From Micavibrio sp. (lineage in GTDB: Bacteria; Pseudomonadota; Alphaproteobacteria; Micavibrionales; Micavibrionaceae): DNA of 35,663 bases. The DNA is taken from assembly GCA_002708415.1 (NCBI GenBank), contig PANS01000043.1:1-35663 (forward strand), in the 5' to 3' direction. Both the position numbers and the translations under genes were made by a program. Shown piece by piece: positions 12,783-29,161 of the stretch; the stretch's first letter is position 1; the number at the start of each line of letters is the position of its first letter. The notes beneath the pieces were generated by a model. It did not search any database. It had not been told where the DNA came from and saw only the letters and a program-made list of their open reading frames with translations.

Positions 12783-12815
12783 AACCGGCCATTTTAGAGA
12801 TAAAATTTTACGGTT
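12783..12815 (+). promoter_or_regulatory. Nested hairpin in the rpsM leader
   Basis: AACCG (12783-12787) pairs with CGGTT (12811-12815), enclosing a perfect ATTTTA/TAAAAT hairpin (12791-12796 with 12801-12806) capped by the GNRA tetraloop GAGA. The element ends about 20 nt before the AAAGGAG ribosome binding site of rpsM. In E. coli the alpha operon leader binds S4; no rpsD is present in this operon, so the regulator, if any, is unknown. Confidence 0.4.
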
Positions 12816-12845
12816 TCGTTAGAGATTAATCATAAAGGAGCAGAC

Positions 12846-13226
12846 ATGGCCCGTATTGCAGGTATAAATATTCCTGATCGTAAGCGCGTAACAATCGCGT
12901 TAACTTATATTCACGGTATCGGACGCACAAAAGCGCGTGAGATTTGTGAAGTAACAGGTATCGATAAAACTCGTCGTATGAATGAGTTGAGTGAAGATGA
13001 ATTAAACCAACTTCGTGCAGAAATTGATACAGACAAGTACCTTATTGAAGGTGATCTTCGTCGTGAAGTTTCAATGAACATTAAACGTTTGATGGACATG
13101 GCATGTAACCGTGGTTTACGTCACCGTAAACACCTACCTGTTCGTGGTCAAAGAACACGCACAAATGCCAGAACACGTAAAGGTCCGGCTAAACCGATTG
13201 CTGGTAAGAAGCCAGTCGGTAAATAA
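12846..13226 (+). CDS. rpsM: 30S ribosomal protein S13
   Basis: The 126-residue protein starts [15 protein letters not shown] and continues with the helix-two-turn-helix segment [16 protein letters not shown]. It ends with the basic tail [20 protein letters not shown], which contacts tRNA and the 50S bridge. S13 forms a head complex with S19. It has a strong ribosome binding site (AAAGGAGCAGAC) and is the first gene after the promoter at 12678-12705. infA and rpmJ, found here in many other bacteria, are absent. Confidence 0.98.
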
Positions 13227-22105: not shown

Positions 22106-22738
22106 ATGTCTTTTAATGGTTTGATTGCGGGTGATGATGGCATTCAACGTTGTTGGTGGCCTAGTGATGATCTTGAATATATTCGCTACCATGATGAAGA
22201 GTGGGGACCTCCCGTTGATGACGATAAGCGTTTATTTGAAAAAATATGTTTAGAAGGGTTTCAGGCTGGATTGAGCTGGCTTACTATTTTAAGAAAACGA
22301 GATAATTTTAGAAAAGCATTTGATAATTTTGATTTCTATAAAGTAGCCAAATATGCAAATGATGATGTAGAACGTTTAGTGAAAGACGCTGGTATTATAC
22401 GCCACCGAGGAAAAATTACTTCAACGATCAATAATGCTAATCGTGTTCAGGAACTTATAAAAGAGTTTGGATCATTTGCTGCTTATATTTGGCGGTTTGA
22501 ACAGCCTGAAAACACACGCCCTTTAAAATGTGATTATGATTCTTTGTCTAAAATCACGATGAGTGATGAGTCAAAAGCGCTATCCAAAGACCTTAAAAAG
22601 CGCGGTTGGTCTTTTGTTGGCCCTACAACTTGCTACGCTTTTATGCAGTCTATGGGCATGGTGAATGACCATGTTGAAGGCTGTCATTGCCGCGATAAAA
22701 TAGATCAGGCGCGCAAGAATTTTAAACGGCCTGTTTAA
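22106..22738 (+). CDS. tag: DNA-3-methyladenine glycosylase I
   Basis: Tag removes 3-methyladenine from alkylated DNA to start base excision repair. The 210-residue protein aligns with E. coli Tag throughout. Zinc ligands are Cys16 (RCWW), His29 (RYHDEEWG), His189 and Cys193 (NDHVEGCHC). The base-recognition residues Glu50 and Trp58 sit in ICLEGFQAGLSWLTIL. AGIIRHRGKI and KKRGWSFVGPTTCYAFMQ are also conserved. It begins 5 nt after the ATP12-family gene and ends the plus-strand run; no clear terminator follows directly. Confidence 0.96.
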   Translation: MSFNGLIAGDDGIQRCWWPSDDLEYIRYHDEEWGPPVDDDKRLFEKICLEGFQAGLSWLTILRKRDNFRKAFDNFDFYKVAKYANDDVERLVKDAGIIRHRGKITSTINNANRVQELIKEFGSFAAYIWRFEQPENTRPLKCDYDSLSKITMSDESKALSKDLKKRGWSFVGPTTCYAFMQSMGMVNDHVEGCHCRDKIDQARKNFKRPV

Positions 22739-22808
22739 GGTATTTAAATTTTTTCTTGCTATCAGCTACCATCTTGTGAGAAGCTATCTTTGGTTTAAGG
22801 AAATAAAA

Positions 22809-22898
22809 ATGATTTTTACATTTAAAAATACATATAAAAAATTAGGGCGATCCGCCTCTAAATCATTCGTCTATCCGCTTGTTCAATCAATGCGGTAA
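22809..22898 (+). CDS. Possible 29-codon leader ORF before the ABC transporter
   Basis: ATG at 22809 is preceded by AAGGAAATAAAA, one of the better ribosome binding sites in the window. The frame runs 29 codons to TAA at 22896-22898. The product would be a short basic peptide beginning MIFTFKNTYKK, with no membrane helix and no family I recognise. Hairpin 22842-22861 lies inside it and hairpin 22906-22933 starts 7 nt after its stop, the arrangement of a leader peptide. Translation is unproven. Confidence 0.3.
   Translation: MIFTFKNTYKKLGRSASKSFVYPLVQSMR
22842..22861. repeat. Bulged hairpin, first of a pair
   Basis: TTAGGGCG (22842-22849) pairs with CGCC plus CTAA (22853-22856 and 22858-22861) around the loop ATC, leaving T22857 as a single bulge. 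It is a G+C-rich island in otherwise A+T-rich non-coding DNA. The second hairpin 45 bp downstream has the same loop and the same one-base bulge on the 3' arm. Confidence 0.45.
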
Positions 22899-22905
22899 CT
22901 GCGAT

Positions 22906-22933
22906 GGCCTAGAGCGCATCGCGCTTTCAGGCC
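22906..22933. repeat. Bulged hairpin, second of a pair
   Basis: GGCCTAGAGCGC (22906-22917) pairs with GCGCTTT and AGGCC (22921-22927, 22929-22933) around the loop ATC, with C22928 bulged and one G-U pair, making 12 pairs. No T-run follows, so it is not a standard terminator. Its left arm competes with an alternative pairing of GCGATG (22901-22906) with CATCGC (22917-22922). The rest of the 22739-23024 stretch is A+T-rich and shows no tRNA or other RNA gene that I recognise. Confidence 0.5.
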
Positions 22934-23024
22934 AACAAAGAACTCCTTAATATATCCATTATATATCTTGTTTTCTTCTCGGTCTGGCCACTTAAACGCC
23001 AAAATTAAAACTGAAAGTAAAACA

Positions 23025-24821
23025 ATGAAAAAAAAGATAACTTATAAAGATATAACGCGTTTTTCACTCCACTATTGGATGAAATCACCTGTTCGTTTTT
23101 TTGCGACAGCAATTATGATATCTCTGGCAGCCGTTATTGACTCTATCTTTCCAATTGTTACTGGCCGTCTTGTGAATGCAATGACGAGCACGGATTTGAG
23201 TAGGGTGGGAGTGGAATTCATTTCATTTTTACCAAAAGCTGTTGTTATGGCTTTATTGCTATTGGTTATTGTTGAGTTTTTATATCATGGCGTTCGCAAT
23301 ATTGCTTACGGGTTATGGAATCGTGTGGCTGTTGATATATTGCAAAGTATAACGCAAGATTTATTTTATAAAGTTCAACGTTTCTCAACGGACTGGCATG
23401 CAAATAGTTTTGCTGGCGGAACTGTTCGTAAAATCACGCGTGCTATGTGGTCTTTTGATACTTTTGAAGATATTTTTATTATGTATCTTCTGCCAACTGG
23501 AATTGTGATGATTAGTATCATTGTCAGTATGACGCTGCATTGGCCTATTATGGGATTTGTTACATTCATATCTGTAGTTGTTTATGTTGCTATTAGTGTT
23601 TGGACAGTGCTTTGTATTAACGCAAAGAATTTTAAACGAGCTGCAAAAGCAGATACAGAAGTGGGAGCAGCCATTGCGGATGCTGTTACCTCAAATCATA
23701 CGGTTAAGTCTTTTGGTGCCGAGATCAAAGAAGATGTTATTCTAAGTGGTGTAACAGGATGTTGGAGACGTTTAGCTTTAACAAGTTGGCAAATTGCCAA
23801 TGGTACAGATTTATTGAGACGTTATGTTAGTGTGCTCATGATGCTGTTGATGGTTGGAACATCTCTGTGGCTTTGGTCTCAGGAGCGCGCTGACACTGGT
23901 GATATTGTTTACGTTTTTACAAGTTTTATCGTTCTTTCTGCTTACTTACGCCATATCGGTGAACAAGTTGCCAATATGCAACGTGCTGTCAGTGAAATGG
24001 AAGATGGTGTTTCATACTGGCTTCGTGAAGATGATGTTGTCGATAAAGAGGGAGCAAAAGATTTTATTCCTGAGGAAGGGCGTATTACTTTCGATAAAGT
24101 GTCATTCTCTTATGATGAAGACCAAACATCGATTTACGAAGATTTTTCTATTGAAATTAAAGCAGGAGAAAAAATAGCTTTAGTTGGATATTCAGGTTCA
24201 GGAAAATCAACGTTCGTGAAGCTCTTGCAACGTTTTTATGACGTGCAAGGTGGAGAAATACGTATTGATGGGCAAGATATTTCTAGTGTTACGCAAAGCT
24301 CTTTACGTCGTGCGATTTCACTTGTGCCGCAAGATCCGATTTTATTTCATCGTAGTTTGATGGATAATATTGCTTATGGCTGCCCTGATGCAACCAAAGA
24401 AGATGTTATTGAGGCGGCGAAACAGGCTTATGCCCATGATTTTATTGAAACGTTGCCAGAAGGATATAATACACTTGTTGGTGAACGTGGTATTAAGCTT
24501 TCTGGCGGTGAACGTCAGCGTGTAGCGCTTGCTCGGGCAATTTTAACCAATGCCAATATCTTGGTTATGGATGAGGCAACGTCTTCTCTTGATTCTGTTT
24601 CTGAGCATTATATTCAAAAAGCGCTTAAGAATTTAGAGCAGGATAGAACAACTATTACGATTGCTCATCGTCTTTCAACGATTAAAGATGCAGAGCGTAT
24701 TTTAGTGTTTGATAACGGAAAAATTATTGAGCAAGGAACGCACGCAGAATTGGTTGCTCAAGAAGGATCTCACTATAAACATTTATATGAGATGCAGGTT
24801 CTAGATTTAATTGGTGATTAA
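23025..24821 (+). CDS. ABC transporter, fused permease-ATPase half-transporter (exporter type)
   Basis: The 598-residue protein has an N-terminal six-helix exporter domain (about 20-320) and a C-terminal ATPase (about 353-590), the MsbA/HlyB-like layout of a homodimer-forming exporter. The ATPase is intact: Walker A GYSGSGKS (388-395), Q-loop Gln436, signature LSGGERQR (492-499), Walker B ILVMDE (512-517) and His548. The start at 23025 (MKKKITYKD) has a weak GAAAG; an upstream in-frame TTG at 22968 is possible but adds non-homologous sequence. It ends 4 nt from the converging purN. The substrate cannot be read from sequence; lipid, peptide or drug export are all possible. Confidence 0.93.
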   Translation: MKKKITYKDITRFSLHYWMKSPVRFFATAIMISLAAVIDSIFPIVTGRLVNAMTSTDLSRVGVEFISFLPKAVVMALLLLVIVEFLYHGVRNIAYGLWNRVAVDILQSITQDLFYKVQRFSTDWHANSFAGGTVRKITRAMWSFDTFEDIFIMYLLPTGIVMISIIVSMTLHWPIMGFVTFISVVVYVAISVWTVLCINAKNFKRAAKADTEVGAAIADAVTSNHTVKSFGAEIKEDVILSGVTGCWRRLALTSWQIANGTDLLRRYVSVLMMLLMVGTSLWLWSQERADTGDIVYVFTSFIVLSAYLRHIGEQVANMQRAVSEMEDGVSYWLREDDVVDKEGAKDFIPEEGRITFDKVSFSYDEDQTSIYEDFSIEIKAGEKIALVGYSGSGKSTFVKLLQRFYDVQGGEIRIDGQDISSVTQSSLRRAISLVPQDPILFHRSLMDNIAYGCPDATKEDVIEAAKQAYAHDFIETLPEGYNTLVGERGIKLSGGERQRVALARAILTNANILVMDEATSSLDSVSEHYIQKALKNLEQDRTTITIAHRLSTIKDAERILVFDNGKIIEQGTHAELVAQEGSHYKHLYEMQVLDLIGD

Positions 24822-27850: not shown

Positions 27851-29161
27851 TCAATCAATTATTGCATCATCTGTGCGGGCTGCGGATAAGTCGACACCGT
27901 CTAGAATGGCGCCTGTAAGGTCAGCTTTTCTTAAATCGCAATCTTCAAGATTTGCGCCTGTTAAATCCACACCCATTAGAATAGAATCGCGTAAATCTGT
28001 TCCTGATAGATCTGTATAACGCATAACAGCACCACTAAGGTTCGTGCGCTGGATACGAACACCTGTGCCATCTGGGCTATCGAATTTTAGACCGCTTAGA
28101 TTAGCACCGCTTAGATTAGCGCGAGAAAAAACACAATTTTGTAAAGATGAGCCGCGTAAATCGGCACTCATCATACGACAATCACGAAAGCTGGATTCAT
28201 TTAATGTGGCACTTTGCATTTTGATCTCATTGAGATCCATATCAATGAAATTTGCTTTAATTGCTTTAATTGCTGTAAGAGGATACGTTTTTAAGTGCAT
28301 AACATGTCTTAAATCAACGCCGCTTAAATCCATTTGAGCGCCTTTTTGTCCGGCTGAAGAAACCCATGCTTTGTGTTTGCTTAGAAGATCTTCTAAATCC
28401 TCTCCGCGCTCTTCTAGTGTGATTCCCATTGATTGATCGTCCATAATGCCATCAAGTTGTGCGCCTTGTAGCTCTACTTGTTCCATGACTGTACCACTCA
28501 TGATGGAATCTTGCAGGTTTGCATTTGTCATGTTTGATCCAGTAAAGTTTGCATCGGTAAGATTGGCGCCACTGAATTTAACGCCTGTTAAGTCGGCTTC
28601 ATTGATGGTTACGCCAGTCATATCGGCATCAGAAAAATCTGCTGATATTGCTTTTACACCTGTTAAATTTGTTTCTGTAAGCTGCGCGCCAGTAAAGATA
28701 GCGTTCCATGAGGATCTTTCATCATTAGTATTATCTCCAGCACGCTGACGATTTTGTAAAGTTCCATCAGAGCTCTGCTCCATGATTTTTCCTTCACGTA
28801 AATCTGCAGAATCTAAATCAGCACCTGTAAGATTGGCACCAGCAACATATGCGCCACGAAAGTCAGCGCGTTTAAAATCAGCATTTTCTAAGTTTGCATT
28901 ACGAAGATCGCAGGCATAAAAACATGAGGCAATAAATATTCCATTAGACATGTCAGCATTTTTAAGTATTGATCCAGTGAAATCTGCTTGTGATAAATCA
29001 GCACTACGAAAATTTAAATCTGTAAGATCTAGAAATTTTAAGGATGCTCTTGCACCACCCTTTTTACCAATAGTGAATCTTTGGTGAAGGTTAATGACTT
29101 CATCAAGTTCTCTTTGAGAAAACCTGACAAGATTGTCTGGGCTGGGTGCTTTCTTATTCAT
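27851..29161 (-). CDS. Pentapeptide-repeat protein with two repeated modules
   Basis: The 436-residue protein is built largely of five-residue A(D/N)LXX units, such as DLTGANLEDCDLRKADLTGA, which form a right-handed quadrilateral beta helix. Two blocks are visible. Each is introduced by a related cap: HQRFTIGKKGGARASLKF from His26 and HKAWVSSAGQKGAQMDLSGV from His263. The second cap is typical of alphaproteobacterial pentapeptide proteins. A polar Gln/Asn/Asp-rich insert (about 127-152) breaks the first block. There is no signal peptide or membrane helix, so it is probably cytoplasmic. It lies 45 nt after pgi and ends 32 nt before mutL. Its molecular role is unknown. Confidence 0.9.
   Translation of the reverse strand: MNKKAPSPDNLVRFSQRELDEVINLHQRFTIGKKGGARASLKFLDLTDLNFRSADLSQADFTGSILKNADMSNGIFIASCFYACDLRNANLENADFKRADFRGAYVAGANLTGADLDSADLREGKIMEQSSDGTLQNRQRAGDNTNDERSSWNAIFTGAQLTETNLTGVKAISADFSDADMTGVTINEADLTGVKFSGANLTDANFTGSNMTNANLQDSIMSGTVMEQVELQGAQLDGIMDDQSMGITLEERGEDLEDLLSKHKAWVSSAGQKGAQMDLSGVDLRHVMHLKTYPLTAIKAIKANFIDMDLNEIKMQSATLNESSFRDCRMMSADLRGSSLQNCVFSRANLSGANLSGLKFDSPDGTGVRIQRTNLSGAVMRYTDLSGTDLRDSILMGVDLTGANLEDCDLRKADLTGAILDGVDLSAARTDDAIID

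Follow-up and report, generated by a model that had tools for sequence, protein, structure and literature searches.

In 35,663 nt of a Micavibrio sp. contig (the whole stretch analyzed, hereafter the window), the 286-nt gap upstream of an ABC-exporter gene is probably the 5' leader of the exporter mRNA, where a short upstream ORF (uORF) would serve as a cis-acting, translation-sensing switch (attenuator). The layout of the leader, its recurrence, the covariation of two pairings outside the genus of the window (P1 and P2, see below), and the presence of a single copy have been computed. The initial annotation of the gap, which suggested a leader-peptide switch, thus described a real feature and guessed its kind correctly, and our comparison appears to support that reading in part: a uORF and alternating arms are found in front of orthologous exporter genes, but these pairings could not be shown for the genus of the window, and the peptide is not conserved across genera.

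Organization of the gap

The gap (22739–23024) separates the stop codon of a glycosylase gene, ending at 22738, from the exporter ATG at 23025; its G+C content is 35%, compared to 41% for the window. The gap, the flanking genes and the predicted elements are as follows.

22106–22738: 3-methyladenine DNA glycosylase gene (Pfam PF03352)
22756–22782, plus strand: promoter-like site, TTGC (22756–22759), 15 nt, TGTGAGAA (22775–22782)
22797–22801, plus strand: Shine-Dalgarno (SD) box AAGGA of the uORF, from sequence
22809–22898, plus strand: uORF of 29 codons and TAA, MIFTFKNTYKKLGRSASKSFVYPLVQSMR, from sequence, with counterparts in relatives
22842–22861, plus strand: hairpin 1 within the uORF, TTAGGGCG-ATC-CGCC(T)CTAA, with an ATC loop and one bulged T on the 3' arm
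22901–22922, plus strand: alternative hairpin X, GCGATG (22901–22906) with CATCGC (22917–22922)
22906–22933, plus strand: hairpin 2, or P3 (arm 2 with arm 3), GGCCTAGAGCGC-ATC-GCGCTTT(C)AGGCC, with an ATC loop and one bulged C on the 3' arm
22922–22931, plus strand: 3' arm of P3, CGCTTTCAGG, complementary to the exporter SD region
22969–23024, plus strand: hairpin closing over the exporter SD (TGTTTT...AAAACA), from folding against shuffles
23010–23019, plus strand: exporter SD region, ACTGAAAGTA, from sequence
23025–24821, plus strand: half-size ABC-exporter gene (598 aa, Pfam ABC_membrane and ABC_tran), presumably the regulated gene

The 286-bp gap described originally, with its SD-led 29-codon ORF, the hairpin inside this ORF and the second hairpin 7 nt past the stop codon, is confirmed, as are the ATC loop and the single bulged base on the 3' arm of both hairpins. 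The plus strand of the gap folds with z –4.0 (0/200 shuffles as good), the minus strand, with z –2.2 (2/200). Among the individual elements, each folded as a stretch shifted rightwards by one base, hairpin 2 is clearly non-random (z –4.8, 0/200), hairpin 1 is borderline against shuffles (z –2.1, 8/200), and the alternative GCGATG/CATCGC pairing is by itself unremarkable (z –1.2, 23/200). The stretch 22967–23030, holding the hairpin over the exporter SD, yields z –2.8 (1/200), and the mean unpaired probability of the exporter SD in the leader ensemble is 0.12.

The score of the promoter-like box of the window is equaled in 4/200 shuffles, and such boxes score at ≤10/200 in 17/41 leaders, for a motif (TTGC-N15-TATGACAT) that was read off the very leaders it was then scored on and is not independent of them; a generic sigma-70 scan of the gap did not pick up the TTGC box. 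An ORF with an SD of equal quality occurs in 15/500 shuffles of the 300 bases preceding the exporter, so that in the window alone the statistic for the uORF is suggestive only, and its support comes from recurrence in relatives.

Elsewhere in the window, the glycosylase gene is preceded by an ATP12-chaperone-like gene (PF07542; 21321–22097, plus strand). In several relatives, the exporter leader directly follows a gene whose ending resembles that of the ATP12-like gene by eye, and the glycosylase gene is absent. A 436-aa protein consisting mostly of pentapeptide repeats (27851–29161, minus strand) adjoins mutL.

Recurrence of the leader in relatives

As no full-length DNA homology of the gap was found in 57 relatives, the comparison was run via neighboring proteins. 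The exporter product (598 aa) has one membrane and one ATPase domain. Its best NCBIfam model is MsbA (380.5 bits, under the 602 cut-off), and its relatives in PDB include ABCB1/ABCB4, Atm1 and MsbA; these matches imply no substrate. The exporter is found in 55 out of 142 genomes of the order Micavibrionales (E ≤ 1e-45, query residues 1–337), in 35 out of 104 genomes of the family (E ≤ 1e-50), and in three out of ten genomes of the genus, including the host (G000, G007, G008), the other seven having no match at E ≤ 1e-50. Gaps of approximately 250–370 bases are frequent upstream of it. Beyond the order, named genomes were scanned with the membrane domain of the exporter, yielding at least 593 pattern matches, 585 of them confirmed; the best 80 were kept, and many of these loci come from Bradyrhizobium, Devosia, Achromobacter, Burkholderia, Paraburkholderia and relatives.

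An SD-led uORF was assigned by eye at the equivalent place for 42 of the 55 exporter genes of the order, with the arms described below in view, which may flatter the result. Four of these leaders (G118–G120, with uORFs of 48–54 codons, and G125) are doubtful, lack P1 and P2, and may not belong to the set. One more gene, cut by a contig end (G035), was later found to have a uORF leader, beyond the 42; the remaining 12 exporter genes either lie close behind another gene or have no assignable ORF. Automatic counting by a fixed rule identified uORFs in 30/53 loci of the order, compared to 5.3 expected from shuffled sequence. Outside the order, 32 out of 50 loci have a strong-SD uORF, compared to 1.0 expected from shuffles; these 50 were chosen from the best 80 matches by title and by sufficient upstream sequence, and many represent the same genus (Bradyrhizobium, Devosia, Achromobacter), hence repeated counting. 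The rule there required an ATG uORF of 10–30 codons with a strong SD, ending 100–230 nt before the exporter; the SD thresholds of the automatic count, –5 in the order and –7 outside it, were set after a first look at the outside-order ORFs. In L160–L212, from Burkholderiales and rhizobia, strong-SD short ORFs are observed 100–330 nt upstream of the exporter, several of them with similar endings (SRP, ARP, RRH), possibly a further form of the leader, rich in GC and with its last residues conserved.

In the relatives, the leader can be described as a chain in which each arm would be able to pair with the next one: the uORF SD, arm 1, arm 2, arm 3 and, in some species, arm 4. The 3' part of the uORF in many relatives contains a string such as TTTCCGGG (arm 1). 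The first half of arm 1 is complementary to the SD of the uORF itself (P1), e.g., GGAAACGA/TCGTTTCC in genus g3, GGAAATGAA/TTCATTTCC in family f3, GGAAATAACA/TGTTATTTCC in G019, GGAAGCG/CGCTTCC in G078 and GGGAGT/ACTCCC in G046. The complement of the second half of arm 1 is arm 2, located past the stop codon (P2), as in CCGGGTC/GACCCGG, CCGTGCCA/TGGCACGG and CCGAGCC/GGCTCGG, all within g3. Arm 2 also forms a local hairpin with arm 3 (P3).

When the SD is compared to the whole leader, the best partner found for it starts, in 31 of the 42 leaders, 15 to 60 nt ahead of the uORF stop. Tests on single leaders are weak: the best SD partner reaches ≤5/100 individually in only 14/42 leaders, and P2 reaches ≤10/200 in 27/42. 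Our main test is the permutation of partners between leaders. When each of 20 genera is represented by a single leader, with the window and doubtful leaders included, permuted partners reach the energy of the cognate P1 in 0/20000 permutations and that of the cognate P2 in 1/20000; the counts are again 0 and 1 when the doubtful leaders are omitted, and 0 and 0 for all 42 leaders. An earlier permutation used 32 leaders, with near-duplicates and doubtful ones among the 42 left out, and also gave 0 for both; its "one per lineage" subset, which held several leaders from a single genus but none from that of the window, was replaced by the 20-genus permutation. In all permutation tests, G066 was assigned an internal GTG start, which, like the late choice of SD thresholds and the arm 3 strings picked by eye, may favor the outcome.

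Covariation agrees with this in part. In a structure-free alignment of 29 of the 42 leaders, 81.3% of the P1 and P2 cells are paired. Changes on both sides affect 52 cells, compared to 20.0 in shuffles (0/500), and a shift of the partner by 1–3 columns lowers the paired fraction to 16–62%. The number of covarying pairs (89/500) and further pair types (104/500) are not above shuffles. For P2 alone in genus g3, 12 cells are changed on both sides compared to 3.7 (0/500), two other measures being unremarkable (67/500 and 420/500). Hence, in both the g3 and the 29-leader runs, two of the five measures do not exceed shuffles.

A covariance model, R1, built from the 29 aligned leaders, is a test of modest, limited power. 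It recovers three of the 12 assigned leaders left out of it (G066, G019 and G116, E-values 2.7e-4 to 1.7e-3) and also matches G035 (2.8e-4), which is equaled by a chance match in a cytochrome-like gene of G007 (2.1e-4); four of its own builders (G017, G018, G040, G046) are missed. The 25 matches at E ≤ 1e-4 are all located at exporter leaders, and, as 24 of them are the builders of the model and the remaining one (G130) is near-identical to a builder, they prove little as evidence that only exporters have this leader. Out of 22 weaker matches, eight were inspected, of which one is the exporter leader of G035 and seven have no exporter start in the sequence inspected.

Outside the order, in 24 chosen loci, the cognate pairing of P2 type is favored (17/20000), P1 does not covary (6739/20000), and R1 has no match in 47 loci. 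Judging by these comparisons, the uORF layout appears widespread, and the variant that seals the SD is supported only inside the order.

The reading frame over arm 1 varies: V-S-G in g3, S-F-P-G in most of f3, and H-F-R-A-F in G131. The frames differ between species, so what is kept is the string of nucleotides and not the peptide, and a leader peptide conserved across genera is rejected. Within g3 (L104, L106, L107, L103, L108, L105, L101, L102, L098), the uORF mostly ends with VS-x-x-x-GL-x-F, an ending that might act as an arrest peptide in addition to the RNA switch. Hairpin 1, located inside the ORF and noted initially, has no counterpart in the relatives inspected.

Direction of control and the window's own copy

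From the layout and from known systems, we infer a single transcript, translation of the uORF, the signal and the direction of control. When the uORF is translated normally, its SD and arm 1 would be kept open, arm 2 would pair with arm 3, and expression of the exporter would be low, P3 in some species being an intrinsic terminator that keeps it so. When translation of the uORF fails, e.g., because of a ribosome-targeting drug or a shortage of ribosomes, the SD and arm 1 would seal each other (P1), arm 1 would then capture arm 2 (P2), P3 would be prevented, and the exporter would be made. In the window, the 3' arm of P3 could instead pair with the exporter SD.

This direction is favored by two observations: P3 is terminator-like in seven leaders, compared to a later helix with a T-tract in two, and P1 makes the untranslated state self-sealing. 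P3 with a T-rich tail was identified in 7/42 leaders (G059, G017, G066, G008, G019, G116, G046), compared to 1.1 expected, by our own scan, which covered only 85 nt after the uORF stop; generic scans allow for loops of 3–8 only and miss P3 in L086, L087 and L234. In G035, a T-run follows P3 (by eye). Arm 4 is complementary to arm 3 at ≤10/200 in 17/41 leaders, the arm 3 strings having been picked by eye, and a T-tract, noted by eye rather than by a systematic scan, follows the arm 3:arm 4 helix in G007 and G058. In the window (2/100) and in G007 (0/100), the exporter SD finds its best complementary partner in arm 3; this is not so in G008 (75/100), and none of the other leaders among the 42 pairs arm 3 with the exporter SD at ≤5/100. 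Sequestering of the exporter SD as a general feature is unsupported: 5/42 leaders have a partner for it at ≤5/100, only the window and G007 at P3, in a scan where the exporter start of G086 was misplaced.

The same leader might operate in the opposite direction: a ribosome stalled on the uORF or finishing it would allow arm 2 to pair with arm 3, and no repressor helix of arm 3 with arm 4, or with the exporter SD, would form, leaving the exporter on. In erm and trp-type leaders, translation of the leader ORF or arrest on it switches the downstream gene on. The arm 4 complementarity and the two T-tracts agree with such a scheme, as does the complementarity of arm 3 to the exporter ribosome-binding site in the window and G007, where P3 would free this site; induction via bmrB needs translation, according to the text of PMC4191407. 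It is opposed by the terminator-like P3 itself, by arm 3 not being the partner of the exporter SD at ≤5/100 outside these two genomes, and by P1, which seals the uORF SD and favors "untranslated" as a meaningful state. We consider the opposite direction unlikely for the leader in general, and possible particularly in the genus of the window.

The window's own copy is divergent. Its P1 scores 37/100 (rank 28 of 31), with the best SD partner outside the uORF, and its P2, 116/200 (rank 13 of 31); for the congener G007, the values are 90/100 and 142/200. Within the three sequences of the genus, the cognate P1 is weaker than non-cognate ones, P2 yields 689/2000, and R1 does not match the window. 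Covariation of P1 and P2 thus holds across the 20 genera but not in the window's genus. The window copy keeps the promoter-like box, the SD and the uORF, and P3; its P3 has no T-tract. The alternative pairing noted initially as competing with hairpin 2 is present in the sequence, and comparison of the three sequences, aligned by eye, shows both 6-mers of hairpin X to be letter-identical in G007 and replaced in G008 by GCGGTG/CACTGC (one compensatory change and one G-U), where they form a terminator-like hairpin with a T-rich tail, although the pairing alone does not stand out from shuffles. For a pairing between the uORF and the 5' half of hairpin X, the values are 226/500 in the window, 268/500 in G007 and 26/500 in G008.

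The copy in the window may therefore have lost the function: it would descend from a switch, its hairpin being a relic or an mRNA stabilizer, with the exporter expressed constitutively. Such degeneration is given more weight because the whole genus, and not just the window, has no support for P1 and P2; the missing R1 match and the lack of a terminator point the same way. Still, the uORF, the SD, the promoter box and the hairpin with z –4.8 persist, as do the identical 6-mers of hairpin X in G007, and we regard a functionless relic as doubtful. By sequence, the window copy appears to be a divergent member of the recurrent leader, possibly rewired to act on translation of the exporter, or decayed; of the possible levels of control in it, exporter translation is the more likely one.

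Two further explanations leave the uORF out of account. A ligand riboswitch or a protein-bound leader with an incidental short ORF would fit a long structured leader preceding a transporter, and unexplained ABC-leaders are reported by Naville and Gautheret (2010), according to the text of PMC2965389. This explanation is improbable, as no conserved aptamer-like block is seen in the alignments, the covariation falls on pairings made by the SD of the uORF and by its 3' part, and uORFs exceed chance both in the order and outside it; moreover, Rfam 15 has no match in the gap at the gathering score, a relaxed search of the gap yields four chance-level matches only, all on the other strand, and in 20 related loci no match falls in the leader, the single one being RNase P in L191, away from it. 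The one Rfam match elsewhere in the window is RF00140, the alpha-operon ribosome binding site (12803–12878, plus strand, 41.6 bits at a 38-bit threshold), which overlaps the start of the ORF 12846–13226. A REP-like mobile palindrome or a free-standing small RNA, both proposed initially, might be suggested by the gap holding two similarly shaped hairpins, and is the least credible explanation, very improbable in our estimate: a blastn search with the gap as query finds, in the host assembly (1.37 Mb, 77% complete), the gap itself and 17 short matches, the 28-base hairpin 2 occurs there once even with up to three mismatches allowed, and the terminator scan identifies no terminator-like site in the gap; the lack of an Rfam match likewise gives no support to a small RNA.

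Known leaders and implications

The translation-sensing switch proposed here is of an already known kind, the uORF attenuators; its arm arrangement in the relatives is of interest. Among attenuators of this kind in front of drug exporters, those of Firmicutes have received most study. Searches of open-licence PMC text (titles and abstracts, without supplements) identified no paper on a leader of this exporter subfamily.

One of the closest parallels is the duf1127_1 uORF of the alphaproteobacterium Sinorhizobium meliloti, where, according to the text of PMC12218461, tetracycline raises expression of the downstream gene, blocking translation of the uORF relieves attenuation, and C-rich codons of the uORF are the proposed partner of its ribosome-binding site. 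Both systems have an SD-led short uORF, a proposed pairing of its ribosome-binding site with the uORF when untranslated, and, as suggested here, the same direction of control. The pairing there involves codons 3–10, at the start of the uORF, whereas in our relatives it involves the 3' part, and in the window no pairing of the SD with its own uORF was found; the gene controlled is a DUF1127 gene rather than an ABC exporter, and termination is thought to be Rho-dependent (PMC12218461). We claim no homology.

The leader also resembles bmrB of the Bacillus subtilis bmrCD operon, as presented in the text of PMC4191407: a leader ORF with alternative stem-loops precedes a multidrug ABC exporter, blocking translation of bmrB lowers expression, and named drugs are shown to induce it. 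It differs in having a two-gene exporter, in its Firmicute host and in the stem-loops being located within bmrB. Compared to it, the window has the short SD-led ORF upstream of an exporter, which is also recurrent; mutually exclusive helices between the ORF and the hairpin are supported by comparison in the relatives and not detected in the window's genus, and the gap has no intrinsic terminator. In the toiL uORF of Escherichia coli topAI, as the text of PMC12121999 describes it, occupancy of the uORF alters the structure at the downstream ribosome-binding site, which may be compared to the pairing of arm 3 with the exporter SD in the window; that system belongs to a toxin-antitoxin operon, has one hairpin between the uORF and the topAI ribosome-binding site, and is terminated in a Rho-dependent manner inside topAI. 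The ABC-leaders of Naville and Gautheret (2010) are likewise predicted attenuators preceding ABC-transporter operons; the five shown in the text of PMC2965389 differ by belonging to Pasteurellaceae, lactobacilli, enterococci and bacilli, and the full list of 205 candidates may overlap with the leaders described here.

As a tentative generalization, for which the chances are somewhat below even, these leaders might constitute an undescribed and widespread class of translation-sensing leaders in Alpha- and Betaproteobacteria, tied to one ABC-exporter subfamily. In Micavibrionales, the uORF SD would then be the first arm of the switch, so that an untranslated leader would seal itself and turn the exporter on, and the peptide would be free to drift.

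Taken together, the comparison suggests a recurrent uORF attenuator across Micavibrionales-like bacteria, rhizobia and Burkholderiales, in front of an exporter with no known substrate. If true, it would provide an example of RNA structure preserved across coding sequence while the encoded peptide drifts, and a fusion of the leader with GFP would be a general reporter of translation stress in such bacteria. It would also hint that the exporter removes something harmful to ribosomes.
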